Shown: positions 20,960 through 32,259 of the stretch, piece after piece | Layout of the letters: every line of letters begins with the position of its first letter | Numbering within the stretch: the stretch's first letter is position 1 | Origin: Bacteroidales bacterium | GTDB taxonomy: Bacteria; Bacteroidota; Bacteroidia; Bacteroidales; UBA932 | Direction: 5' to 3' | DNA: 55,940 nt | Assembly: GCA_024401825.1 (NCBI GenBank) | Contig: JAKSKF010000007.1 | Coordinates: 1 to 55,940 of the forward strand | The notes under the pieces: generated by a model | Told to the model about the DNA's origin: nothing | Database searches by the model: none | What the model saw: the letters and a program-made list of their open reading frames with translations, nothing else | Program-made: the position numbers and the translations under genes

Positions 20960-21982
20960 ATGACAAGATTCGATTGCGACTATATGGCCGGGGCGCACCC
21001 TGAGATTCTGAAAGTGATAAACGAGAACAACAGAATCCAGACTCCCGGTTACGGAGAGGACTCTTTCTGCGACGAAGCCCGCGAACTCATCCGCAAGGCC
21101 TGCGGGAAACCTGATGCGCAGGTTTACTTCCTTGTCGGCGGGACACAGACGAACGCGGCGGTCCTGGACTGCATACTTCCGCATACCAGAGGAGTGCTTT
21201 CCACCGAAACCGGGCACATCAACGTCCACGAGGCGGGCGCCATCGAATTTTCCGGGCACAAGGTGCTCAGTCTCCCCTCCCACGACGGCAGGATGGACTC
21301 TTCGGAACTCAGGGACTGGATTCAGAAATTCAACGCTGACGACACGAGGATGCATATGGTCGCGCCGGGAGCCGTATATATCTCGTTTCCCACGGAACTC
21401 GGCACCGTTTACAGCAGGGATGAACTGGAGTCTCTCTACGGAGTCTGCCGCGAAGCCGGTCTTCCCCTGTTCATAGACGGAGCAAGGCTCGGCTACGGAC
21501 TCGCCGCATCATTTGAACTGGACCTGAAGGACATCGCCAACCTGTGCGACGTCTTCTACATAGGCGGGACCAAGATGGGAGCCCTGTTCGGAGAGGCCGT
21601 GGTCTGCACCCGTCCCGACCTGATGAAAGATTTCTTCACGCTTATGAAAGCCAGGGGGTCCGTACTCGCCAAAGGCAGGCTTCTCGGGATGCAGTTCGCC
21701 CGCTTCTTCAGGGACGACCTCTACCTGGAAATCGGAAAGCACGGCGTCAAGATGGCTCTCGAACTCCGTGACATCCTGGAATCCAAGGGCTTCAGGACCT
21801 TCATAGACTCCCCCACCAACCAGCAGTTCTTCGTACTGCCCAACAAGGTTGCGGACAGGCTCCTCAGGGAAGTGAGCTTCGAGTTCTGGGGACCTCGCAC
21901 AGAGGAAGAGTCTCAAGTCAGGTTCGTCACTTCCTGGGAGACCACACAGGAAGACATAGACAGGCTGGCGTCCCTGCTCTAG
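20960..21982 (+). CDS. Low-specificity threonine aldolase-like PLP enzyme
   Basis: A 340-aa fold-type I PLP enzyme. It opens with MTRFDCDYMAGAHPEIL, as expected for the family. GGTQTNAAVLDC forms the phosphate cradle, FIDGARLGYGLA carries the Asp that holds the pyridine nitrogen, and YIGGTKMGALFG carries the Schiff-base Lys. It would cleave L-threonine or L-allo-threonine to glycine and acetaldehyde, though related beta-eliminating lyases cannot be excluded. The start at ATG 20960 lies after the promoter box. Its TAG overlaps the stop of the convergent porin gene by 4 nt (CTAG). Confidence 0.88.
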   Translation: MTRFDCDYMAGAHPEILKVINENNRIQTPGYGEDSFCDEARELIRKACGKPDAQVYFLVGGTQTNAAVLDCILPHTRGVLSTETGHINVHEAGAIEFSGHKVLSLPSHDGRMDSSELRDWIQKFNADDTRMHMVAPGAVYISFPTELGTVYSRDELESLYGVCREAGLPLFIDGARLGYGLAASFELDLKDIANLCDVFYIGGTKMGALFGEAVVCTRPDLMKDFFTLMKARGSVLAKGRLLGMQFARFFRDDLYLEIGKHGVKMALELRDILESKGFRTFIDSPTNQQFFVLPNKVADRLLREVSFEFWGPRTEEESQVRFVTSWETTQEDIDRLASLL

Positions 21983-23256
21983 AAGCAATAGGCCATCACG
22001 AAGGCAAGACGGTGGGCCTGACCGAAGTCGGGAGCGCCGTTTGCGGCGTAAAGTCTCTTGTTCAGGAACATATACTCTATCCCGCAGTAGGCGTAGTCGT
22101 CGAAGTTCCAGAAGAAGTTTGCAAGTCCCCCCAGGGCATTCCTGAAGTTGTCGTAGAGGGTGTATCGGGGAGAATCGAACACGTGGGAGTCGAACAGTAC
22201 GAATGAAGAGCAGAATTTCCTGGACCAGGCGGCCTCGAATGAAATTCCGGCGTTGACGCTCGGAACCGCTGACATAGACTTGTAAACGCCGTCGGTGGAA
22301 TTGTTGATTGCAAGGTCCAGCTTCATCCCCTGGAAACTCCTGAGGTACGAGTTGATGCCCCTGCCGCCTATGAAATCCCAGGAAATCTTGAACATCGGCG
22401 ACAATTTGACGCCACCGCTGAAGGCAATTGCGTAGCCCGGAACGTGACCGTTGATGCCGACATTGTCGTATTCCGGCGGATATTCGAAACTCCAATAGGA
22501 AAGATAACGGAACATACAGGCAAACTGGAGGTGGCCTCCGGTCCAATTGTACTTGAGCTTCAACGCTATGTCAGGCAGGGGCTGGTATGTGGTTCCTATT
22601 CCGCTCTGCTGTCCGTAATGGTCCAAGTCCACCGTGGGAAGTTCGAGCGACCCGGCAAGACTCAGCCCGCATTTGAAGCGCTGAGTGTATCCTATCAGGA
22701 AATGGGGTTTGTCAACCAGGGAGGTGAGGGCCGTTCCCGTGGACTTGACTCCATATTCAAGGTCCGTCAGGAAGGTCGGTATCATTCCGAGCGAGAAACC
22801 GTTAAGGGAAAGATAGGCCTCTGCAAGCTTGATTTTGTTGTTGTCATCCCCGTCAATCTTCAGGAATGCGGTAATCTTGTACTTTCCGAGTTTTGCCCTG
22901 GCCTTGGCGTACAGGTAACTGTCCGACAGTTTTCCGTAGAACCCGGGGCTCTTGTCAGTGGGCACCGACAGGCTCCAGGGATTGAAAGCCACCGTACTGA
23001 CGGCCCCTCCGAATCCGTAGGAGGCAACGCCCTTCACTACGCCGCCGACACCGAAGTCTATGCCTGTCCTCTTGTCGGAAAACATAAAGCGGGGGTCTCC
23101 CATATCGCGGTTCGCCTTCTGGTAGAAACCCATCTCGTCCCTGTATTGGGTGATATCCTTGACGGTGGTGTCCCTGACTATGGCCTGCGCATTCGCCGTG
23201 AAGGGAATCACGACGGCAAGCGCAAACGCAATCAAAATCATATTCTTTCCTTTCAT
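21979..23256 (-). CDS. Outer-membrane beta-barrel porin (DcaP-like)
   Basis: A 425-aa protein with a signal peptide ending near ANAQA. The mature part is a series of alternating amphipathic strands with many aromatic and Gly residues (DFGVGGVVKGVASYGFGG, LYAKARAKLGKYKITAFLKI) and ends in Phe (VMAYCF), as outer-membrane barrels do. It best resembles DcaP-type porins, but the exact family is uncertain. The ATG overlaps the upstream HAD gene stop by 4 nt; it is the last gene of the eleven-gene series starting at 31345. Confidence 0.75.
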   Translation of the reverse strand: MKGKNMILIAFALAVVIPFTANAQAIVRDTTVKDITQYRDEMGFYQKANRDMGDPRFMFSDKRTGIDFGVGGVVKGVASYGFGGAVSTVAFNPWSLSVPTDKSPGFYGKLSDSYLYAKARAKLGKYKITAFLKIDGDDNNKIKLAEAYLSLNGFSLGMIPTFLTDLEYGVKSTGTALTSLVDKPHFLIGYTQRFKCGLSLAGSLELPTVDLDHYGQQSGIGTTYQPLPDIALKLKYNWTGGHLQFACMFRYLSYWSFEYPPEYDNVGINGHVPGYAIAFSGGVKLSPMFKISWDFIGGRGINSYLRSFQGMKLDLAINNSTDGVYKSMSAVPSVNAGISFEAAWSRKFCSSFVLFDSHVFDSPRYTLYDNFRNALGGLANFFWNFDDYAYCGIEYMFLNKRLYAANGAPDFGQAHRLAFVMAYCF

Positions 23257-23870
23257 AAGCCAAAACCGTTCAGTTTGTCCGGGACGGCGTCCGCCGGCAG
23301 AAAGCCGGCGCCGAGCGCTTCCGCGCTCCGTTTGTCGGTGTCAGTCCTGTCACCGACAAACAACGCCTCCTGCGGTGTGGTTTCCAATATCTCCAGCACC
23401 TTGGCCGCCGCCTTCGCGCAGGGTTTGGGTCCTCCGAACGAGACAGCGTCGGCGAGAAGGTCAAAAATTTCCGGGTCTATCCCCAGCGCCTCCAATTTTT
23501 CGGCAATATAGCAATAGTCTGAAAAACAAGCAAGTCTGACGCCTTCGGCCTTGAGCCTGGACAACAGAGGAACAACCCACTTGCGTGGTTTGAAGCGGCG
23601 TTTCAGGAGTCTTGCCTGGAGTGGAAGGTATTCCCGGAAGAACCATCTTTCCACCTCTGACCTTTCTATCCCGGATTCCAGAGAGACCGCCTCCAGAAAA
23701 CTTTCCTCCGGATTGTCGCCGAGACAGCGGCCCGCAAGCCTTTTCCTGCAACGCCGTTCGGCCGCAAGCAGGCGCAGCCTCCCCGGGCTGTTCAGGATTA
23801 CCAGGAGCGGCAGGGCGGAATTGTCATACAGGGTTCCGTCCAGGTCAAATATGACTGACTTAATCTTCAT
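23253..23870 (-). CDS. HAD-superfamily hydrolase
   Basis: A 205-aa phosphatase-like protein. HAD motif I is FDLDGTLYDN at the N-terminus, motif II the Ser in LACFSDY, the motif III Lys in GPKPCAK, and motif IV is VGDRTDTD. A helical cap of about 80 residues sits between motifs I and II, as in subfamily I enzymes. The substrate is unknown. It overlaps plsC by 11 nt and the porin gene by 4 nt, so translation is likely coupled. Confidence 0.88.
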   Translation of the reverse strand: MKIKSVIFDLDGTLYDNSALPLLVILNSPGRLRLLAAERRCRKRLAGRCLGDNPEESFLEAVSLESGIERSEVERWFFREYLPLQARLLKRRFKPRKWVVPLLSRLKAEGVRLACFSDYCYIAEKLEALGIDPEIFDLLADAVSFGGPKPCAKAAAKVLEILETTPQEALFVGDRTDTDKRSAEALGAGFLPADAVPDKLNGFGL

Positions 23871-24687
23871 TCCAGAATGCAGGCCAGGGATTTTCTATGA
23901 TGCCGGCCATATCGCATACGGATGCGTGGGCCTCACGCAACAGGCGTTCCACCTCATCCTTTCGGGGCCGGCTCCTGTCCGGGAAGAGCGGCTCTCCCAC
24001 GGTCAGGGTGAGAAGAGGAATCTCCGGCTTGCCGAAAAGTCTGTAGATGCCCTTGCGCTCTCGATAACTGATATTCAGCGGAAGTACGGGCACTCCGTAC
24101 TTGTATGCCATGGTGAACGCTCCCTTCCTGAAAGGCTTCACCGGCTTGTAGAAATGCCAGTTGCGCGCCTCCGGGAACACCAGAATCCATTCCTTGCGGC
24201 GGTGAATCTCGTCGAAGGCCTCGTTGAACTTCCGCAGACCCCCGAAATCGTCGGGAACGGGGATTCCCCCGAAATATTTCAGATACCAGGCCTGGTCTCC
24301 GTTGAAATGGTCCTGCAGCATAGGCGTCCTCAGACGGTGTCCCAGAATCCTCGCCACCGCGGCTCCGTCGTGGGGATAACAGTGGTTGCATACGGCAATG
24401 ACTCCGCCCGCAAACTCCCTGCGGTACTTGCGGAGCACCTTCCTGTTGCGGAAGCGCATTCCGTAGCGGAAGACGTCGGAAAGCATCAGGGGCACGTATA
24501 CCACAAGGTCTGCCAGTATGTGCTGCAGCCTGAAGGACAGCGAGTCGTCCAGGTACGTATAAGTGTCGTCGAACTTGAGGTCGCGGAGTTTCCGCACGGG
24601 AACAAGACGCGCATAGGGGTCGTCGGTGGGATAGTCTATTCCGACATCGGGCAGATATACGCCCTTCCTGAGTTTGAGATTCTTCAT
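23860..24687 (-). CDS. PlsC-like 1-acylglycerol-3-phosphate acyltransferase
   Basis: A 275-aa glycerolipid acyltransferase-family protein. The catalytic NHCYPHDGA (Hx4D) is near residue 100 and the phosphate-binding FPEARN near 170. A hydrophobic stretch near 55-75 (LADLVVYVPLMLSDVF) could be membrane-embedded. It would transfer an acyl chain to lysophosphatidic acid or a related lipid at the inner membrane. It begins 7 nt after the secreted-protein gene and lies late in the alarmone/partner-switching series. Confidence 0.85.
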   Translation of the reverse strand: MKNLKLRKGVYLPDVGIDYPTDDPYARLVPVRKLRDLKFDDTYTYLDDSLSFRLQHILADLVVYVPLMLSDVFRYGMRFRNRKVLRKYRREFAGGVIAVCNHCYPHDGAAVARILGHRLRTPMLQDHFNGDQAWYLKYFGGIPVPDDFGGLRKFNEAFDEIHRRKEWILVFPEARNWHFYKPVKPFRKGAFTMAYKYGVPVLPLNISYRERKGIYRLFGKPEIPLLTLTVGEPLFPDRSRPRKDEVERLLREAHASVCDMAGIIENPWPAFWNED

Positions 24688-24694
24688 AAGTACG

Positions 24695-25327
24695 TCATTT
24701 TCTTTTCCAGGTGGTAACGGGAGTACCGGGTCCCCCTTCCACTGACTTGTATCCTGTAAGCGAGCCGTCTTCCGGCGAATAATAGTAGTCCGCGTGCCAC
24801 AATTTCTTCTTGACGCCGACCGGGGTCGCCCTCACGCATATGCCGTCGAGGTCGTGGCACTTGACGGTGCGGGCCTCCATAGTCACCAGCGAAAACTCTC
24901 CGGGGCGGAAACATTCATAGCGGACGACCTCTCCGGGAGAGACGGTTCTTCCGCAAATATAGGCAAGGTTCTGATACCACGGAAGTCCCCGACCGCTTTC
25001 ATATTTGTCAACACTCTTTCCTTTTGTAACACCGCACAGATGATAACGGTCGCCCTCACGGGTTATTGACATATCGAAATCCTTGCTGGAATCGACTATA
25101 CGCCAGAATACGGTCTGGTTGTCACTGTCTATCCTATGGTAACTTTTCTGTGTCCCAATTTGTATGAACAAGTTTGTTACATTTCCGTCCTTGGAAATTT
25201 TGTATATAACCTCGGATGTCCTGAAGCCCGTTTTCTTTGTAAATTTGATAGTCTGGGCATAATTTGGAATTGACAACAGTAAAAACAGCGTTGACAGATA
25301 GAAAATTATGCGTTTGACGGATTTCAT
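24695..25327 (-). CDS. Secreted protein of unknown function
   Basis: A 210-aa protein with a signal peptide (KRIIFYLSTLFLLLSIPNYA, cleavage before QTIKF). The mature chain is rich in beta-strand patterns and has four Cys residues (LCGV, YICG, YECF, VKCHDLDGICV) that could form disulfides in the periplasm. The TVKCHDLDGICV...TPVG... segment and the YYYSPEDGSLTGYKSVEGG end recall DUF3108-like periplasmic proteins, but I do not assign a family. It lies 7 nt after the esterase gene and 7 nt before plsC. Confidence 0.75.
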   Translation of the reverse strand: MKSVKRIIFYLSTLFLLLSIPNYAQTIKFTKKTGFRTSEVIYKISKDGNVTNLFIQIGTQKSYHRIDSDNQTVFWRIVDSSKDFDMSITREGDRYHLCGVTKGKSVDKYESGRGLPWYQNLAYICGRTVSPGEVVRYECFRPGEFSLVTMEARTVKCHDLDGICVRATPVGVKKKLWHADYYYSPEDGSLTGYKSVEGGPGTPVTTWKRK

Positions 25328-25334
25328 CTTGCAA

Positions 25335-26237
25335 TCAGAAGAGTGATTTTACAAATGTTTCCAGATATTCAGACCAATTGTACCAGTCGTGACCGCCTTT
25401 TGACTCTTCATAAATGTAGCAGAATCCGTTTTTGTTCAGGTAATGACGGTAATCTTCGACGTGTCCGTAAAGAGGGTCGGCTGTCCCGACTGCAAGCGAG
25501 TAGATTCTTGGTGTGTCGCTGAACTGTTCTCTCTGCGCGGAGCGCAAATCCCTGTAAATTCCGGAATAAGGACTCTTTTGCGGAGGCCAGGGTTGCCACA
25601 AGGGGGAAAACAGGCCCACATAGTCGAACATATGCGGATTCAGAGCCGAAATGTATATGCATTGAAGCGCTCCAATCGAAAGTCCGGCTATTGCCCTGTC
25701 GGACTTGTCGGCGCGTACCCTGAAATTGCTCTCCACAAAGCCTACGACGTCATTCACGAAACTGCTCTCCACAGCGCCGTTTACTTCAAAAAAGCTCTCC
25801 ATGGCGTTCTTGAAACGCGACAGGCCGTAGTCGGCGTCGTCGTCATACTGGTTCGTATTGGGCAGGACAACTATGAAATCCCTGCACTCCCCCTTGCGGC
25901 GAAGGGTATCGAGCATCTCCACCAAACCTCCGTCCTTTATCCAGGAGGTCTCGTTGCCCCTTGCGCCGTGCAGGAGGTAGAGGACAGGGTACTCCTCCGT
26001 GTTGCCGTAATAGTCAGGAGGCAGATAAACGAGCATCCTGCGCCTTGTGGGGCCGATATCGGCGCTGCAAGGATAATAGAACTCCTGGAGGGACGATGAA
26101 GGCCTGAACAGCGAGTCAATCGCCTGGAGCGTCAGATATTCCTTGTCAACAGTAAAAATGCGGTTTATGACCGAACATCCGCAGAAGATTCCGGTCATCG
26201 CAAGAAAAATCAGTGCCGTGCCTGTGCGCCTCCTCAT
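25335..26237 (-). CDS. Lipoprotein esterase (esterase D / enterochelin esterase type)
   Basis: A 300-aa alpha/beta hydrolase with a lipoprotein signal ending FCGC. Motifs: YLLHGARGNETSW (oxyanion), VVLPNTNQ, nucleophile elbow AGLSIGALQ (GxSxG), acid GTADPLYG and catalytic His in GGHDW. The pattern is that of the putative esterase family (Fes/esterase D), which includes carbohydrate acetyl and feruloyl esterases. The preceding phosphatase gene ends 1 nt upstream. Confidence 0.88.
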   Translation of the reverse strand: MRRRTGTALIFLAMTGIFCGCSVINRIFTVDKEYLTLQAIDSLFRPSSSLQEFYYPCSADIGPTRRRMLVYLPPDYYGNTEEYPVLYLLHGARGNETSWIKDGGLVEMLDTLRRKGECRDFIVVLPNTNQYDDDADYGLSRFKNAMESFFEVNGAVESSFVNDVVGFVESNFRVRADKSDRAIAGLSIGALQCIYISALNPHMFDYVGLFSPLWQPWPPQKSPYSGIYRDLRSAQREQFSDTPRIYSLAVGTADPLYGHVEDYRHYLNKNGFCYIYEESKGGHDWYNWSEYLETFVKSLF

Positions 26238-26238
26238 C

Positions 26239-27042
26239 TCAATCCCTCTCCAGATAACGTTCCTTCAGTACTGAAATATCATAATCCGTGACGCAAAGGG
26301 GCCCCTTGAGATATTCGGTCAGGGAGCCGAATCTTCTGTCAATCAAGTCCAGGGCATTGACAAAATACCTGGGGTTCACGCTTATGAAAGTACGGATTAC
26401 TTCCTTTTGGGCATCGGTCTGAACCTTGCGGAACAGGGCCTGGAGTTCGTTTTCATAATATTGCGCGGAAATCATATAGTCATACATTATCAGTTCCCTG
26501 TCTGCCCCAAGGGCGGAAAGTATGAACGCGGCCCCCAGTCCCGTGCGGTCCTTTCCCTGCGAGCAATGCCAATAGACGGCGCCGTCCGGCGCTCCCGCTA
26601 TCTCCGACATAAAAGCGGCGTACTGAAGCTGGGTGTATTCGTTCATTACCATTTCCGAATACAGCGACGCGGCCACCCTCTGCACGAATGTGTCTCCGCT
26701 GTTCCTGAGCAGCCAGGAAGCAAGGTCACTGAATGCCTCCTTGGGCAGGGTCGAGCCCGCGGCCTTCTCCGTATCGGGGTCAATGGCCGGCAACCATATC
26801 CTGTCCGCCCCCGGTACCTCCCGGTCCGGAGCCGCAGTCACCTCCTCAAGTGTGCGGAAATCAAAGATGCGCCTCACCCCGTAACGGGCAGAAAGCCCGG
26901 CGATATCCTCATCCGAGGCATCGCTGAGCGCTCCTCCACGCAACAGGAGTCCCTTCCTGATTCTTGAACCGTCGGGAAGAACGTACCCTCCGAGTTCCCT
27001 TGCGTTGGATATGCTCGGAAGGATGAAGAGGCCGGAATCCAA
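26239..27042 (-). CDS. Tyrosine-protein phosphatase (Y_phosphatase3 type)
   Basis: A 267-aa phosphatase. The N-terminal ARELGGYVLPDGSRIRKG is the family start, and HCSQGKDRTGLG is the CX5R phosphate loop with the extra GKDRTG typical of this class. It may act on phosphotyrosine or phosphoinositide-like substrates. The start is a TTG at 27040-27042, since no ATG precedes the conserved N-terminus. It lies in the same frame as the upstream STAS gene, only one sense codon after that gene's TAG. It is the sixth gene of the series from 31345. Confidence 0.85.
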   Translation of the reverse strand: MDSGLFILPSISNARELGGYVLPDGSRIRKGLLLRGGALSDASDEDIAGLSARYGVRRIFDFRTLEEVTAAPDREVPGADRIWLPAIDPDTEKAAGSTLPKEAFSDLASWLLRNSGDTFVQRVAASLYSEMVMNEYTQLQYAAFMSEIAGAPDGAVYWHCSQGKDRTGLGAAFILSALGADRELIMYDYMISAQYYENELQALFRKVQTDAQKEVIRTFISVNPRYFVNALDLIDRRFGSLTEYLKGPLCVTDYDISVLKERYLERD

Positions 27043-27045
27043 ACC

Positions 27046-27348
27046 CTACTGAATCTTTATGATGTTGGAAAAGCCGGTTATGTCGAACACTTCCTTGACC
27101 TCGGGACGCATATTCTTCATCACCATATTGCCGTTCTTGAGAGACACGGCCTTCTGAAGCATCAGGAAAAGCCTGAGTCCCTGGCTTGAAGTATATTCCA
27201 TATCAGAGCAGTCAATCTCTATGTCAGGGTGCTCGAGTTCCATCAGAGGAGCCATATCCTGTTGAAACTGACTTGCATTGGTCGTGTCCAGTCTTCCTTT
27301 GAGTGTTGCGAAGGTCTTGCCTTCACCTGTGGTAATCTGTAAATCCAT
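27046..27348 (-). CDS. STAS-domain anti-sigma factor antagonist (RsbV/SpoIIAA-like)
   Basis: A 100-aa single STAS domain. KGRLDTTNASQFQ and SDMEYTSSQGLRLFL are the family hallmarks; Ser54 or Ser55 in TSSQG is at the position phosphorylated by the partner kinase in RsbV and SpoIIAA. It lies 1 nt after the SpoIIE-type phosphatase gene, which would dephosphorylate it, and two genes after the RsbW-like kinase that would phosphorylate it. Together they make a partner-switching module. Confidence 0.93.
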   Translation of the reverse strand: MDLQITTGEGKTFATLKGRLDTTNASQFQQDMAPLMELEHPDIEIDCSDMEYTSSQGLRLFLMLQKAVSLKNGNMVMKNMRPEVKEVFDITGFSNIIKIQ

Positions 27349-27349
27349 A

Positions 27350-29251
27350 CTATTTGAAATAAGTTATTGTCATTATCGTTATATCGTCGTTCTGGGGATT
27401 TTCGTCCACGAAAGACCTTATGTCCTCCAGAAGTCCGTCGCTTGCCTCCCTTGAGTCGAGTCCTGAGGAAGAGCCGGCCCATTGCAGCAACCTGTCGTTG
27501 CCATACTGGCTTCCGTCCTTTTTCTCAGCCTCGTTCACGCCGTCCGTATAGAGAATGATGCGGCCGCCTTTCTGCAAAGTGACGGTTTCCACCTCATAAG
27601 GGAATGAGGAGTCCAGGCCGAGCGCAAGATTGGGGCGGGGTCTGACAAACTCCGCCTTTCCATCCGGAGACACCAGGATGAACGGGTTGTGGCCCGCATT
27701 GCAGAAAATCAGTTCCCCGGTATCGAGGTTCAGACGCCCGAAGAGCAGGGTGACAAAGAAGAATTCCGAATTGTTCTCGCAAAGGTTCGAGTTAATCTTC
27801 TGGACGGAAGACTTCAGGTCCTGGTCGTGAATGAGATGGCAGGCCATCCTGGTCAATGCCATATACAATGATGCGGGAACACCCTTTCCGGACACGTCTC
27901 CAACCGAGAAATACAGGAGATTGCCGTTCAGCTTGAAGTCGTACAGGTCTCCGCCCACCTCCCTCGCAGGTCTCAGCAGGGCGTAGAGGTCAATCCTGTC
28001 GGTCTGCGGGAAGTTGACCGGAAGCATTGCCTTCTGAATCCTTTCGGCTATGTTGAGTTCGCTTTCGAGGCGTTCGTTCGCCGCCGTGGTCTGCTTCAGT
28101 TCTCCTATGTAGTTCTGCAGGTTGTTCTGCATATATTCGAAAGAGTCCCTGAGCTGGCGTATCTCGTCCTCGGACTTGATGTCCGGCAACTCGCTCCCGA
28201 AGTCTCCGGTAGCTATTCTTTTTGCAGAATTGCTGAAAATCACAAGGGGACCGGTCTGGGACTTGACGAGCAGGTAGCAGACAAGGAAAATCAGCATAAG
28301 CCCCAGAACAGCAATTAATATAACAAATCTGTTAAGGTTTCTGATATGACCCAGGACGTCTCTGATTTCCGTGTGGATGGACATTTTCCACCCGTTGTGA
28401 AGGGAGCCGTAAACCACGTAGCACAGGTGGTTGTCCATCACATAGACATTTGCTTCCTTTTCACCGGCCATCATTGATTTGAGGATTTCAGACACCCCGC
28501 TGGAATTCCTTTCGTTCTTCTGAAAATATGAATACACCGTTTCTCCCGCAAGAGAATCGCTCTCGCTGACGTTGAGATAAGAGCCCTGGCGGCTGCAGAG
28601 AATCACGAGCGAATGTTCGTATGCCTGCACGTCGTTCACGGTTTCAGAGAGCCAGTCGAGCGTGACGTCAGCGGTGATTACCGCATAGACTTTGCCGGAA
28701 GCGTCCTTCAGGGGCCAGCTGTAGGTTGTCATCCTGTAATCTCCCCCACCAAGGTCGACATACGGTTCACACCAGCCGGCTTTACCCGTGTTGAACGGTT
28801 CGGTGAACCAGCCCATGGAGAAGTAATCGTAATCGTCGGTCCCCAACTGTCTGGAGACTATCCTTTCCGTATCGCGTTCAACGTACGAATAGGGTGAAAA
28901 ATAGTGTCTGCCCTTGAAATGGTCGCGGCTGAACGCTATGGCGGAGCCCACTATGTAGGGGCTCTCGGACACTATTCTCTCAGTTATGTGATAGAGATAT
29001 TCTTCGTCAAGACTGTTTTCCCTCACGAGCCAGGCCTCGTTCTCGACGGACAGTTCAACCTCCCTCAGAACAGACTCGACCTCGCGGATGTTGGCGTCCA
29101 GCAGATTGAGAGACGACTTCTGCGACTCCCGCACTATTTCCCTGTAGGACAGAACGGACACGGCGAGCAGCGCCACCAGGAAAAGTATTGAGGTGGCGGT
29201 GAGCAGCTTGAGGCTCAACCTCAGGGAAAACGACTTGCTGGCCGGTTTCAT
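27350..29251 (-). CDS. Membrane sensor Ser/Thr phosphatase: sensor-HAMP-SpoIIE (RsbU-like)
   Basis: A 633-aa protein. TM1 at about 14-37 is followed by an extracytoplasmic Cache-like sensor domain (about 40-300), TM2 at about 305-328 (VILIAVLGLMLIFLVCYLLV), a HAMP linker (RIATGDFGSELPDIKSEDEI), a short coiled coil, and a PP2C-type SpoIIE domain with VGGDLYDF, VGDVSGKGVPASL, LYTDGVNEA and NDDITIM, which supply the Asp metal ligands. It should dephosphorylate the STAS protein in response to a signal outside the membrane. The ATG overlaps the RsbW-like stop by one base (TGATG). Confidence 0.93.
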   Translation of the reverse strand: MKPASKSFSLRLSLKLLTATSILFLVALLAVSVLSYREIVRESQKSSLNLLDANIREVESVLREVELSVENEAWLVRENSLDEEYLYHITERIVSESPYIVGSAIAFSRDHFKGRHYFSPYSYVERDTERIVSRQLGTDDYDYFSMGWFTEPFNTGKAGWCEPYVDLGGGDYRMTTYSWPLKDASGKVYAVITADVTLDWLSETVNDVQAYEHSLVILCSRQGSYLNVSESDSLAGETVYSYFQKNERNSSGVSEILKSMMAGEKEANVYVMDNHLCYVVYGSLHNGWKMSIHTEIRDVLGHIRNLNRFVILIAVLGLMLIFLVCYLLVKSQTGPLVIFSNSAKRIATGDFGSELPDIKSEDEIRQLRDSFEYMQNNLQNYIGELKQTTAANERLESELNIAERIQKAMLPVNFPQTDRIDLYALLRPAREVGGDLYDFKLNGNLLYFSVGDVSGKGVPASLYMALTRMACHLIHDQDLKSSVQKINSNLCENNSEFFFVTLLFGRLNLDTGELIFCNAGHNPFILVSPDGKAEFVRPRPNLALGLDSSFPYEVETVTLQKGGRIILYTDGVNEAEKKDGSQYGNDRLLQWAGSSSGLDSREASDGLLEDIRSFVDENPQNDDITIMTITYFK

Positions 29252-29649
29252 CAGGCGTTCAGATTCAGTTTCATCAACAGGGAATTGCTCCTGTCCTTGT
29301 ATGTGTAAACAATCTCACTCATCATCTTCTTGCAGATAAGAATGCCAAGGCCGCCTATCTGACGCTTTTCGACGGGGGCTTCGAGGTCCGGCTCGCCATT
29401 GTCGAGGGGATTGAATTCCACACCTCCGTCCCGAAACCTTATGTTCAGCTGGGAGTTGTCAATCCAGACACCGAGTTCCACCCAGGTGGTGCCGGAATAA
29501 CAGAGAATGTTTTCCTCCACTTCCTCGACGCAAAGCCTGATTTTGAACTTGATGTTCTCCGGAAGAGAATCGACGTCGGAGCAGTTCATCACAGTCTCGA
29601 TTATTTCCTGGTTTCTGCCTTCTACCGGCTCAAATCTTTTTTTCAGCAT
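29251..29649 (-). CDS. Anti-sigma factor / STAS kinase (RsbW-like HATPase)
   Basis: A 132-aa GHKL-type ATPase. The N-box CVEEVEENIL has Glu and Asn, the G1 box is FRDGGVEFNPL and the G2 box GGLGILI. This is the small RsbW/SpoIIAB class that phosphorylates the STAS antagonist and binds a sigma factor or another client when the STAS protein is unavailable. No sigma factor gene is present in the operon, so the client must be elsewhere. It starts 5 nt after the HD hydrolase gene. Confidence 0.92.
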   Translation of the reverse strand: MLKKRFEPVEGRNQEIIETVMNCSDVDSLPENIKFKIRLCVEEVEENILCYSGTTWVELGVWIDNSQLNIRFRDGGVEFNPLDNGEPDLEAPVEKRQIGGLGILICKKMMSEIVYTYKDRSNSLLMKLNLNA

Positions 29650-29654
29650 ATCGG

Positions 29655-30245
29655 TTATCGTTTTTGTTTTTCAAATACCTGTTCTATTGCTTGGGTGAAT
29701 TCGGAATATGCGGGCGTACCGTCAAGTTCCTTCAATGACTGCGCAAGCCCCCTGTAATGCCATTCGTGGTCGGCCGCGCCGCCGGGAGCGTGGAAACGGC
29801 TCCAAAGGGCGTCGCCCAGGACGGCGAAATCCCGCCTTATGGCCCTCATATTGGAGAGTTTGTCCCCCAGCGCCACAATCTTGGCATCACGTCCGACCGT
29901 CGCGAGACGGTCTATTGCGGCCTGCTTGCGGGCGCGCCAGCTGCGCCTCTCCGAAACGTCCGGGAGGACGATGTCGGTATCAGCCTCGACAAGGGACGCC
30001 ACCCTGTTTCCGAACTCGCGTCGCAAAATCTCCGCGGTCACGTCCGTGTCCTCTATCGTGTCGTGAAGGACTGCGGCGGCAAGCACTTCCTGGTCTGAAG
30101 TCATCGTAGCCGCAATTTCAAGCGCTTCCAGGACGTGTACCACGTAGGGGAAGCCCTTGCCCCGGCGCTCCGTACCCGAATGCGCGTCAACGGCAAATTT
30201 TATTGCGCGGTCAAGCAGTTCTGTATTCAAGGGAGCGTTTGCCAT
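29655..30245 (-). CDS. Small HD-domain alarmone hydrolase (SAH/MESH1-like)
   Basis: A 196-aa single HD domain. VVHVLEALEIAA holds the first His, AAVLHDTIEDTD the HD plus ED pair, and GDKLSNM the last Asp and Asn, the same order as (p)ppGpp hydrolase domains of Rel and MESH1. It should hydrolyse (p)ppGpp or a related alarmone. The ATG at 30243-30245 follows the synthetase stop by 2 nt; a GTG at 30251 would overlap it. Being paired with a synthetase gene recalls toxic small alarmone synthetase / hydrolase pairs. The hydrolase assignment is strong; its exact nucleotide is not known. Confidence 0.88.
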   Translation of the reverse strand: MANAPLNTELLDRAIKFAVDAHSGTERRGKGFPYVVHVLEALEIAATMTSDQEVLAAAVLHDTIEDTDVTAEILRREFGNRVASLVEADTDIVLPDVSERRSWRARKQAAIDRLATVGRDAKIVALGDKLSNMRAIRRDFAVLGDALWSRFHAPGGAADHEWHYRGLAQSLKELDGTPAYSEFTQAIEQVFEKQKR

Positions 30246-30247
30246 AT

Positions 30248-31345
30248 TCACTTGTTGAGGAAAGGGATGTTGGACGCCGTGTTAAGCAGGCGTTCGGCCA
30301 GTTCATAATTGTGGTCGGACTCGCCGCCCACAGTGTCATAGAATTTCTTTATTTCTTTCACGCCGGCGCCGTTGCGCAGCAGATACACCAGACAGAGGTT
30401 GCGAGGCGCCACGGAAGATGATATTATGTCCAAATCCGTGTCGGCTATCTGGAAAACCGCCAGGCGGTAGGCGGACTCGCTGTTCCTGTTGATGAAGGAA
30501 TTCAGGTCCGCGATGGTCCGGAAGCCGAACTGAAGGAAAACCTGCAGGTAGTTGGACAGGGGCACGTCATAGATTTCCGCCTGATTGATGGCGGCAACCT
30601 TGCGGAGCAGCCTGTCGAAAGGCTGGAGTTCCAGGTAACTCGCATACGAGTCCGCATTCAGGGGGACATCCTCGAACTTGCCGCTGCTGACCAGAGACTT
30701 GACGTTGAACCTGTAGTTGTTTATTTCCATCCTTATGGCGCTGAACTGCTCGTCCGCAAGTTCCAGGACTCCGGCAAGCCTGTTCAGGTTGCGCACGTAC
30801 ACGGAGGGGATTTCCACACCCGCCTTGTAACCTATGTCGTGGTTCAGCGTAGCCCACACGTGCTGGAGGGCGGTGCGCATCTGCAGTTCGAACCTGACAT
30901 TGTTGATTTCAGGCCAGGAGGGGTCGCTGAAGAGACTTTCAGGGATGCTGCAGATATAGTGGAGGGAATTGTACCCGAAACTGTCCAAATCGTGCATATT
31001 CCTCTTGTCCACGCTGTTTACCCAGTCAACCTTGAAAACCTTGTCAACTATTCCGGAAATCTTGTCCACGTCATCCGTATAGAAGGTGATGACCCTTGCG
31101 CCCACTATGTCAGTGAGGTCGAAGACGTCGGCGTACTTGGCTCCCTTCTTGGAGAGTTTGCCCACAAGGCTCGCCTCCGTCTTGATTCTGGTTTCAAGCG
31201 CATTGATGAGAACACCCTTTTCAGAGATAGCCTGCTGGAGAAAATCTCTGACAAGAGACTCCAGCTTGGCAAAAAGGAGCATATTCTCACGATACTGTTC
31301 CAGAATGGAAGAGCAATGTGCGTCAAGTCCGTAATTTTCCATCAT
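30248..31345 (-). CDS. RelA/SpoT-domain alarmone synthetase (GTP pyrophosphokinase-like)
   Basis: About 365 aa. The synthetase core is at about 45-175: TRIKTEASLVGKLSKK (ATP-site basic residues), FDLTDIVGARVITFY, FGYNSLHY (G-loop) near 123-130, and FELQMRTALQHVW with the catalytic Glu near 153. A C-terminal region of about 190 residues of unknown function follows; there is no HD, TGS or ACT domain, so this is not a long Rel. The start is taken as the first of two adjacent ATGs at 31343-31345, since the promoter box at 31373-31380 lies downstream of the longer frame's start. Nothing indicates whether it makes (p)ppGpp or pyrophosphorylates another target, as toxSAS enzymes can. Confidence 0.88.
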   Translation of the reverse strand: MMENYGLDAHCSSILEQYRENMLLFAKLESLVRDFLQQAISEKGVLINALETRIKTEASLVGKLSKKGAKYADVFDLTDIVGARVITFYTDDVDKISGIVDKVFKVDWVNSVDKRNMHDLDSFGYNSLHYICSIPESLFSDPSWPEINNVRFELQMRTALQHVWATLNHDIGYKAGVEIPSVYVRNLNRLAGVLELADEQFSAIRMEINNYRFNVKSLVSSGKFEDVPLNADSYASYLELQPFDRLLRKVAAINQAEIYDVPLSNYLQVFLQFGFRTIADLNSFINRNSESAYRLAVFQIADTDLDIISSSVAPRNLCLVYLLRNGAGVKEIKKFYDTVGGESDHNYELAERLLNTASNIPFLNK

Positions 31346-31372
31346 TCCGCTGAAAAAGGGGCACCTATTCCG

Positions 31373-31380
31373 CAAATTTA
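31373..31380 (-). promoter_or_regulatory. Promoter box of the alarmone synthetase operon
   Basis: Minus strand TAAATTTG, 27 nt before the ATG at 31345. It may drive the whole series down to 21979. Confidence 0.6.
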
Positions 31381-31428: not shown

Positions 31429-32259
31429 ATGGACAAGTATCTGAGGGACAGTTTGCGGAACATTTCACACATTGCTCTGGATATGGACGGAACCATTTAC
31501 CTGTCCGACACGATATTCCCTTTCACGCGAGACGTTCTTTCCCGGTTCAGGGAGATGGGACTCGGATATTCGTTCCTGACCAACAACCCCACCAAATCTC
31601 CGGCGGACTACCTGTCCAAACTCCGGGCGATGGGAATAGAGGCCTCGGAAGACCAGATATGCGCCACTTCGCGCGCCACGGTGGACTACGTACGGTCCAA
31701 CTTCCCCGACGCCCGCAGACTTTTCATTCTGGGGACGCCCTCTCTTGAAGGGCTGTTCAGGGAGGAAGGGTTCGAAATCGCCTCGGACAGCCCCGGGGAC
31801 GTTCCCGACATCGTAATAGCATCTTTCGACACCACCCTCACCTATTCAAGGCTCTGCCGGGCGGCCTGGTGGGTCAGCAAGGGAGTGACATACCTTGCCA
31901 CAAATCCCGACAGGATATGTCCCACAGACCTCGACACTGTCCTGGTGGACTGCGGAAGCATATGCAAATGCATCGAGCACGCCACCGGACGCAGGCCCGA
32001 CGCCACCCTCGGAAAGCCGAACCCGGATATGCTGGCCGGAATCTGCAGGAGTCACTCCCTGGAAAAGAGGCAGGTGGCAATGGTCGGAGACCGCATCTAC
32101 ACCGACATCGAGATGGCGCGGCGCGCAGGCGTCTTCGGAGTGCTCGTCCTGAGCGGAGAATCGGATGCCGGAGCCGTCAGCAAAGCCCCCTGCCGTCCGG
32201 ACCTTGTATGTTCCGACATAAAAGAATTTGCGGACCTCCTGACGGAAGCCCGCAGATAA
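31429..32259 (+). CDS. HAD-IIA family sugar/nucleotide phosphatase (NagD-like)
   Basis: A 276-aa protein. Motif I is LDMDGTIYLSD, motif II SFLTNNPTKSP (the class-II cap follows), the Lys of motif III is in LGKPNPDM, and motif IV is MVGDRIYTDIEMA. Proteins of this class dephosphorylate sugar phosphates or nucleotides (NagD, 4-nitrophenylphosphatase, phosphoglycolate phosphatase). The natural substrate is not predictable. It is a single gene divergent from the alarmone operon and converges with the GNAT gene 25 nt later, where I see no clear terminator. Confidence 0.92.
   Translation: MDKYLRDSLRNISHIALDMDGTIYLSDTIFPFTRDVLSRFREMGLGYSFLTNNPTKSPADYLSKLRAMGIEASEDQICATSRATVDYVRSNFPDARRLFILGTPSLEGLFREEGFEIASDSPGDVPDIVIASFDTTLTYSRLCRAAWWVSKGVTYLATNPDRICPTDLDTVLVDCGSICKCIEHATGRRPDATLGKPNPDMLAGICRSHSLEKRQVAMVGDRIYTDIEMARRAGVFGVLVLSGESDAGAVSKAPCRPDLVCSDIKEFADLLTEARR

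Follow-up and report, generated by a model that had tools for sequence, protein, structure and literature searches.

What an alarmone synthetase, an alarmone hydrolase and the parts of a partner switch do side by side in one gene run is the question raised by a contig of a Bacteroidales bacterium (GTDB lineage UBA932; GenBank assembly GCA_024401825.1, contig JAKSKF010000007.1). The whole stretch analysed, hereafter the window, comprises positions 1 to 55,940 of the forward strand. According to the listing of its open reading frames (ORFs), eleven consecutive ORFs, g1 to g11, lie on the minus strand at 21979–31345. A first-pass annotation, made from the sequence alone, had joined them into one operon of alarmone, RsbUVW-type and envelope genes. 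The first six encode a predicted small alarmone synthetase (SAS), a small alarmone hydrolase (SAH), an RsbW-like kinase, a receptor phosphatase with a SpoIIE domain, an RsbV-like STAS protein and a tyrosine-type phosphatase; they almost certainly constitute one conserved functional module. The finding, a conserved, modular and sometimes dispersed alarmone/partner-switch gene set in Bacteroidales, is well supported. So is the functional linkage of g1–g6; direct control of the alarmone enzymes by the switch is a best guess.

Related loci were drawn from three samples: a set of 41 genomes (the window's own, 24 of the same genus and 16 from other families); a profile search of genome contigs with an SAS alignment, which gave 537 relatives, the best 80 of them being used, with a leaning to close relatives; and an order sample of 392 genomes. 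These gave 111 candidate loci plus the window (17 same-genus loci, the best 80 of the 537 relatives and 14 from the order sample). Two loci with a distant SAS (L134, L135) and one with a partial SAS (L037) fell under the SAS score threshold, and L133, L021, L022, L023 and L024 were dropped as duplicates, leaving 103 non-redundant loci and the window. The labels of the 80 relatives are Bacteroidales, Bacteroidia, Bacteroidaceae, Prevotella(ceae) or one of the Candidatus genera Cacconaster and Cryptobacteroides, both Bacteroidales, and Colimorpha, with two Fibrobacter; many were sampled from horse faeces or the digestive tracts of ruminants. The loci were found through SAS, and co-location counts refer to genes within 9 kb of it; the STAS, RsbW and SAH profiles were built from module members and favour such members. 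Most genomes are incomplete metagenome-assembled genomes; that of the window is 89% complete.

Conserved gene content around the small alarmone synthetase

Near SAS, SAH was found in 85 of the 103 loci, RsbW in 81, STAS in 80, SpoIIE in 70 and a kinase of family TIGR02172 in 73; at the 68 loci with at least 5 kb of sequence on both sides, the counts are 58, 59, 57, 51 and 52, respectively. At least one partner-switch component is present in 83 of the 103 loci. This conserved genetic linkage upholds one half of an earlier suggestion, that the SpoIIE/RsbUVW switch is tied to the alarmone enzymes; the other half, an effect on (p)ppGpp levels, we still infer. The core genes near SAS are all on the SAS strand in 92 of 95 loci. 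The surroundings vary: the window's own upstream and downstream neighbour genes recur near SAS in 0, 1 and 0 of the 103 loci, and among accessory genes a K+/H+ antiporter is found in 16 and an NMT1-type binding protein in seven. The SAS-linked partner switch occurs in five family groups (f1, f2, f41, f76, f78); a sixth, f95, has the switch at another site of the genome. The absence of the gene order from any related genome, which the first-pass annotation had named as telling against its proposal, did not occur: loci L043 and L046 share the g1–g6 order.

In most same-genus loci, SAS is followed by SAH, one further gene, a gene for a SpoIIE protein of about 680–735 residues and a STAS gene. At L022, the product of this further gene is a TIGR02172/APH-fold kinase, and a HATPase_c_2 domain is fused to the C-terminal end of the SpoIIE protein. 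By comparison, the window has RsbW as a separate gene, SpoIIE without RsbW and no TIGR02172 gene in the run. The only TIGR02172 match of its genome is on contig C34 (L137, 907–1734), where the 10 kb read shows nothing else of the module; such a lone copy fits the expectation for a dispersed module part. The family's HGD...N motif is present in 72 of 72 proteins.

Sixty-one loci contain SAS, SAH, SpoIIE, RsbW and STAS together. The order SAS–SAH–SpoIIE–RsbW–STAS is shared by 40, and the other 21 show six further orders; the number of arrangements rises to 15 when TIGR02172 and fusions are counted. With seven gene orders in these 61 complete loci, the argument from rearrangement is of limited weight, and it is the dispersed cases described below that carry the linkage. 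Fusions, counted with the module's own profiles in the 103 loci, join SpoIIE to RsbW in 52 cases, SAH to TIGR02172 in 15 and SAS to SAH in one. A quick SAS tree implies three changes between fused and separate RsbW and five changes for the SAH–TIGR02172 fusion.

Two kinds of fused frame may be described individually. At L128 (10265–11962), SAS and SAH share a single open frame of 565 residues, with the synthetase first. SAH and a TIGR02172 kinase-fold domain share a frame at L037 (542–1963), as well as in the 15 counted loci (L041, L042 and L045, for example). The latter fusion points to a possible functional tie between the uncharacterised TIGR02172 family and alarmone hydrolysis.

Co-inheritance and dispersal of the module

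In the 41-genome set, SAS is present in 17 genomes: the window's own, 16 of the 24 same-genus genomes and none of the 16 from other families. STAS matches of at least 124 bits occur in exactly these 17 genomes and RsbW matches of at least 148 bits in all 17; a small SAH is present in 16 of the 17 and in none of the other 24. The eight SAS-negative genomes of the genus have no SAH, and seven of them have no STAS match at E <= 1e-6, a result independent of the bit-score threshold chosen. Fisher tests within the genus, uncorrected for kinship, give p = 9e-7 for STAS (17/0 vs 0/8) and p = 8e-6 for SAH (16/1 vs 0/8).

Genes missing from the SAS locus were sought elsewhere in the genome for a hand-picked part of the cases (10 of the 23 loci without STAS and 12 of the 18 without SAH). 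A STAS gene was found elsewhere in 10 of the 10 genomes probed for it, scoring 121–152 bits in eight; beside these eight strong displaced copies, RsbW is in the same cluster in every case and SpoIIE too in six. Two genomes (G420 and G422) have a lone SAS, a second cluster of RsbW, SpoIIE, STAS and TIGR02172, and a third in which SAH+TIGR02172 is accompanied by a g6-like gene. The dispersed cases are the most telling evidence for functional linkage.

Domain composition and active sites of g1–g6

The SAS gene g1 (30251–31345, minus strand) encodes a protein of 365 residues with a RelA_SpoT domain at residues 52–176 (PF04607, 61.1 bits, cut-off 27) and a conserved C-terminal region at about 211–365; no Pfam match to an HD domain was found in the protein. 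The synthetase motifs, including residues that we take to be catalytic, are intact in 104 of 104 proteins (window included), and g1 is a predicted (p)ppGpp synthetase, the product of which could also be pGpp or (p)ppApp. The SAS profile aligns with the solved YwaC and YjbM over positions 12–210 (E about 3e-16). Solved SAS relatives (YwaC, YjbM and others) reach profile positions 12–217 at most, and two chains of 372–373 residues named 'RelA/SpoT family protein' match weakly at positions 13–217 (E = 9e-4). The C-terminal region (window positions 30251–30715, about 155 residues) has no Pfam or PDB sequence match and is a candidate docking site.

The SAH gene g2 (29655–30245, minus strand) encodes an HD_4 protein of 196 residues (PF13328, 72.3 bits, over the cut-off). 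In the SAH ORFs, the HDxxEDT motif is present in 86 of 86 and [DN]KLxNxR in 84 of 86, one of the two exceptions being a truncated ORF; H22, H37, H61–D62, E65–D66, D128 and N132 are invariant in 19 aligned sequences. Among solved chains, SAH matches the HD-domain protein 7qoe (E = 2.9e-28) and the Small Alarmone Hydrolase 6z3o (E = 1.3e-10). The meanings attached to active-site motifs here and in the other module proteins are those that we presume them to have.

Three genes make up the partner switch. The RsbW-like serine kinase g3 (29251–29649, minus strand; 132 residues) has a HATPase_c_2 domain (PF13581, 45.8 bits) and aligns with solved chains of RsbW and of the anti-sigma F factor. Its ATP-site residues E42, E43, N47, D74, G76 and G99–G102 are invariant in 20 of 20 aligned sequences; the EExxxN motif (N-box) is found in 82 of 82 proteins and GGLG in 81 of 82. 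With the family profile, g3 reaches 171.8 bits; the runner-up in the same genome, a 593-residue frame on contig C12, reaches 31.7 bits, though it too is over the Pfam cut-off (42.4 bits). The receptor phosphatase g4 (27350–29251, minus strand; 633 residues) has a PDC/dCache–HAMP–SpoIIE (PP2C) architecture in Pfam, with scores of 153.6 bits for SpoIIE (PF07228), 92 bits for MCP-like_PDC_1 and 37.7 bits for HAMP. The SpoIIE motifs GDxSGKG (70/71), TDG (71/71) and DDxT (71/71) are conserved, the stricter QNDDxT being found in 18 of 71, and 68 of the 71 SpoIIE loci also match the dCache profile. The RsbV-like g5 (27046–27348, minus strand; 100 residues) is a STAS protein according to PF01740 (56.3 bits) and TIGR00377 (63.3 bits, cut-off 53.45). 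The motif Y-x-S-S-x-G-L occurs in 81 of 81 STAS proteins, and its serine pair, S54 and S55, invariant in 20 aligned sequences, is the predicted phosphorylatable site. The core features of RsbUVW are thus present: SpoIIE phosphatase, RsbW kinase and STAS protein, each with intact motifs.

The gene g6 (26239–27042, minus strand) encodes a Y_phosphatase3 protein, a tyrosine-type phosphatase of 267 residues (PF13350, 193.7 bits). The C-x2-G-x2-R motif is present in 16 of 16 g6-like proteins. Such genes are found near SAS in 15 of the 103 loci and adjoin the displaced small SAH in three of seven such loci (L159–L161); g6 is a peripheral member of the module.

Proposed mechanism

We lean, by a narrow measure, towards a partner switch that directly controls the alarmone enzymes and would set (p)ppGpp instead of a sigma factor. 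The receptor g4 would sense a periplasmic ligand via its dCache domain and adjust its cytoplasmic SpoIIE phosphatase accordingly. This enzyme would remove, and the g3 kinase restore, phosphate on the g5 serine pair. Dephosphorylated g5, or the kinase released or captured by g5, would then bind g1 directly; the version to which we commit is that free STAS activates SAS, as SiaC does SiaD. The g2 hydrolase would reset the alarmone pool, and a periplasmic signal could in this way set (p)ppGpp without a dedicated sigma factor. The enzyme activities, the phosphorylation cycle, contact of STAS or RsbW with SAS or SAH, the sign of that contact and the ligand are all things that we infer, as are the parts that the TIGR02172 kinase and g6 play.

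Several observations weigh against a fixed or direct tie between the switch and the enzymes. No fusion of a partner-switch protein to an alarmone enzyme was found among the 103 loci; fusions stay within each half. RsbW and SpoIIE occur without SAS in two genomes, G018 and G021, the former also with a weaker STAS (98.8 bits). Within the genus, the genomes at least 90% complete form a small table, five with SAS, SAH, RsbW and STAS against three with none. In two of the ten genomes probed for displaced STAS (G425, G426), the only copy is a weaker one (88–89 bits) that neither RsbW nor SpoIIE accompanies. SAH is not universal: in the 12 SAH-less loci probed, a small SAH lies elsewhere in seven genomes and was not found in five, and G012 is an SAS genome without a small SAH. 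No partner switch was seen beside the distant SAS of G409 and G381 (L135 spans 4 kb). SAS itself is patchy, with matches in 15 of the 392 order genomes and none in three other same-genus genomes there; the order sample gave 12 further strong SAS (546–593 bits; the window gene scores 607) in family groups f2, f41, f76, f78 and f95, plus two weak ones.

Alternative explanations

Classical RsbUVW outputs are sigma factors, and the switch might control a transcription factor or an extracytoplasmic function (ECF) sigma factor encoded elsewhere, the alarmone enzymes being a parallel arm or feeding the same response without direct contact. The window's own genome has four ORFs matching sigma-70 region 2, one of RpoD size (286 residues) and three of ECF size (187, 195 and 199 residues), and the latter three could serve such an arrangement. 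Sigma-70 genes were sought as the module's output both in this genome and near the loci, and none was found in the module. There is no sigma-70-like ORF in the window; with the four sigma proteins as queries, a sigma-70-like (ECF-like) ORF appears near SAS in 3 of the 103 loci, 5.7–8.5 kb away; and no second sigma factor of sigma-B size was seen in the genome (89% complete; the model does not cover RpoN). An output of the sigma-B type is not supported, and an output to a regulator encoded elsewhere we consider unlikely. A little less probable again is that the switch acts directly on the TIGR02172 kinase-fold protein or on a transporter such as the antiporter, with the alarmone enzymes upstream of this client or beside it. 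The TIGR02172 gene is near SAS in most loci, is fused to SAH in 15 and keeps its motif throughout, and the window genome retains one copy elsewhere; yet it is missing from the locus in the window and in L038, L039, L043 and L051 (the locus only, for those four), although SAS, SAH, RsbW, STAS and g6 are present, and the antiporter is near SAS in just 16 of the 103 loci.

The alarmone pair could also be read as a toxic SAS toxin–antitoxin unit, in which SAH is the antitoxin and the partner-switch genes are passengers. SAH is indeed the next recognised gene after SAS in 71 of the 103 loci (unrecognised intervening genes being uncounted). SAS persists, however, where SAH, the only antitoxin candidate examined, is about 50 kb off (G019), elsewhere or undetected, and STAS and RsbW track SAS as closely as SAH does; because SAH is separable from SAS and the other two track it equally closely, we rate the toxin–antitoxin reading as very improbable. 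Scarcely credible, lastly, is a chance or neutral operon, the genes having stayed together in a lineage without functional connection. The g7–g11 tail does look like that, and common descent alone could yield the one order shared by 40 of the 61 complete loci, but the six further gene orders, the fusions and the co-occurrence of the genes when dispersed speak against it.

Layout of the run and genes g7–g11

The eleven genes follow one another on the same strand, as had been described, with intergenic distances of -11 to +7 bp (in order from g1: -4, 5, -1, 1, 3, 1, 7, 7, -11 and -4 bp). The 'eleven-gene operon' is made up of the g1–g6 core, which is conserved in relatives, and the g7–g11 tail, which was not seen as conserved in them. 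Nine of the eleven gene labels agree with Pfam (RelA_SpoT, HD_4, HATPase_c_2, MCP-like_PDC_1/HAMP/SpoIIE, STAS, Y_phosphatase3, Esterase, Acyltransferase and HAD); the labels 'secreted protein' for g8 and 'porin' for g11 are unconfirmed, neither protein having a family match.

The promoter-like box TAAATTTG (31373–31380, minus strand) matches TAnnTTTG, the consensus of the Bacteroidales-type -7 box. It is situated 27 bp from the likely ATG of g1 (31345), inside the 83-bp gap between g1 and a divergent HAD gene at 31429; no TTTG was found 16–24 bp upstream of it. The window contains 21 TAnnTTTG matches against 13.6 expected, so a single box is weak. One other minus-strand match lies within the run, at 24954–24961 in g8. 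Of 103 loci, 34 have the motif in the 150 bp that precede the SAS profile match, compared with 5.2 predicted by mononucleotide shuffling; for this count the window was included and L091, with its short upstream sequence, left out. The box proposed by the first-pass annotation is present, and its motif is enriched upstream of SAS in relatives; taken alone, it is weak. A sigma-70 promoter scan of both strands of the window gave 12 matches against 6.2 expected (standard deviation 2.1) and a terminator scan 13 against 11.3; neither decides the extent of the transcript.

Downstream of g6, the putative esterase g7 (25335–26237; PF00756, 88.2 bits) has counterparts in 3 of the 103 loci; 'lipoprotein' is a label of the first-pass annotation only. 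It is followed by g8 (24695–25327), which has no Pfam or NCBIfam match, the acyltransferase g9 (23860–24687; PF01553, 45.6 bits), the HAD phosphatase g10 (23253–23870; PF00702, 54.9 bits) and g11 (21979–23256), a 425-residue protein again without a Pfam or NCBIfam match. All five are on the minus strand. None of g8–g11 was found within 9 kb of SAS in the 103 relative loci. The genes g7–g11 are outside the conserved module and are a local addition. A link of the switch to lipid or envelope changes, suggested earlier, was not borne out by these counts, and an envelope or lipid output was set aside, as g8–g11 are not conserved near SAS.

Accessory genes and paralogues

Other genes enter the module at particular loci. 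A cytidylate-kinase-like gene is located between SAS and SAH at L024 (13911–14564; PF13189 in L024) and also at L025, L104, L107 and L092. At L116 (5487–7277), a CitMHS/TrkA_C transporter gene separates RsbW from STAS; other loci have an antiporter or a receptor phosphatase at that place. A HipA_C-domain gene is found a few hundred bases downstream of a g6-like gene at L032 (3456–4403). The f95 locus L132 (9898–16238) consists of an ABC transporter, an adenine-deaminase-like gene, the SAS–SAH pair and a cupin gene; NMT1, SpoIIE+RsbW and STAS sit elsewhere in that genome (L153).

The window's own genome contains paralogues of the switch. On contig C49 (L118, 6815–9660), a paralogous dCache–SpoIIE gene is directly downstream of an NMT1-type binding-protein gene; neither RsbW nor STAS was found near it in the 15 kb read. 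The recurrence of NMT1–SpoIIE neighbours (L039, L041, L042 and L148) suggests a binding protein–receptor pair. On contig C12 (L119, 5822–7826), a second SpoIIE–STAS pair (565 and 100 residues) is followed by an open frame of 1718 residues. Weaker STAS copies (about 89–113 bits) recur in several members of the genus.

Relation to known systems

One close likeness is to SiaABCD of Pseudomonas aeruginosa, in which SiaA is a membrane receptor and, to our knowledge, no sigma factor is involved. SiaC is a DUF1987 protein and SiaD a GGDEF cyclase, whereas g5 is a PF01740/TIGR00377 STAS protein and no Pfam match to GGDEF was found in g1–g11; with the SiaA model NF038263, g4 reaches 74.7 bits (cut-off 700), well below the score for SiaA orthology. 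The output also differs, being cyclic di-GMP (c-di-GMP) there and, here, that of a predicted (p)ppGpp synthetase and hydrolase. What the two share, according to excerpts of two papers, is a PP2C phosphatase, a kinase and an anti-sigma-antagonist-like phosphoprotein, a partner switch acting on a second-messenger synthase (PMC7647112, PMC8457831). In the HptB–HsbA–HsbD system of the same bacterium, as excerpted, an anti-anti-sigma factor likewise interacts with a second-messenger synthase (PMC5085249); that system makes c-di-GMP and takes its input from the HptB pathway, in contrast to the dCache receptor and alarmone enzymes of the window. The same sources, so far as excerpted, describe STAS or STAS-like proteins that directly control diguanylate cyclases: SiaC–SiaD, HsbA–HsbD and BgrV–BgrR (PMC8457831, PMC5085249). 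Analogy with the SiaABCD and HsbA control of c-di-GMP is our best reading of a partner switch that stands with alarmone enzymes.

Like the module, in which their motifs are intact, the RsbUVW–sigma-B system of Bacillus combines a SpoIIE phosphatase, an RsbW kinase and a STAS substrate, but no cognate sigma factor of the sigma-B or sigma-F type was seen in the module here. SAS of the RelQ/RelP type (YjbM/YwaC) share the synthetase domain and differ from g1, which has about 155 extra C-terminal residues and a partner-switch module alongside. Rel and RshB, the RelA/SpoT homologues (RSH) of Bacteroidia, belong to a common superfamily with it, and contig C51 of the window genome encodes a single long Rel besides. 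For its eight Bacteroidia genomes, a table in the excerpted part of a 2011 RSH survey gives Rel and RshB and no SAS, and the survey suggested that small synthetases and hydrolases are controlled at the level of transcription (PMC3153485). Another paper describes what is known of (p)ppGpp signalling in Bacteroidetes as limited (PMC6994654). The terms ppGpp, alarmone and SiaC are absent, by term search, from the accessible text of a review of STAS-only proteins (PMC8256260). Judged by title or the opening of the abstract, none of the literature matches listed describes a partner-switch/alarmone module, in a search that did not extend to preprints or to most subscription papers, and no paper in the literature searched names TIGR02172.

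The module may represent a new class of alarmone circuit, in which interchangeable periplasmic sensors would act through an RsbW–STAS switch on a small (p)ppGpp synthetase paired with a hydrolase of its own, and a TIGR02172/Y_phosphatase3 pair may modify the same enzymes; outside signals, not ribosome stalling, would then set (p)ppGpp in Bacteroidales. We give this wider picture an even chance. If true, partner switching would reach beyond sigma factors and c-di-GMP cyclases, for which it is known, to a second nucleotide messenger. The module supplies a genomic context for TIGR02172 proteins, and its receptor phosphatase, partner switch and synthetase/hydrolase pair would offer a path, open to direct testing, by which an outside ligand could act on the alarmone pool.

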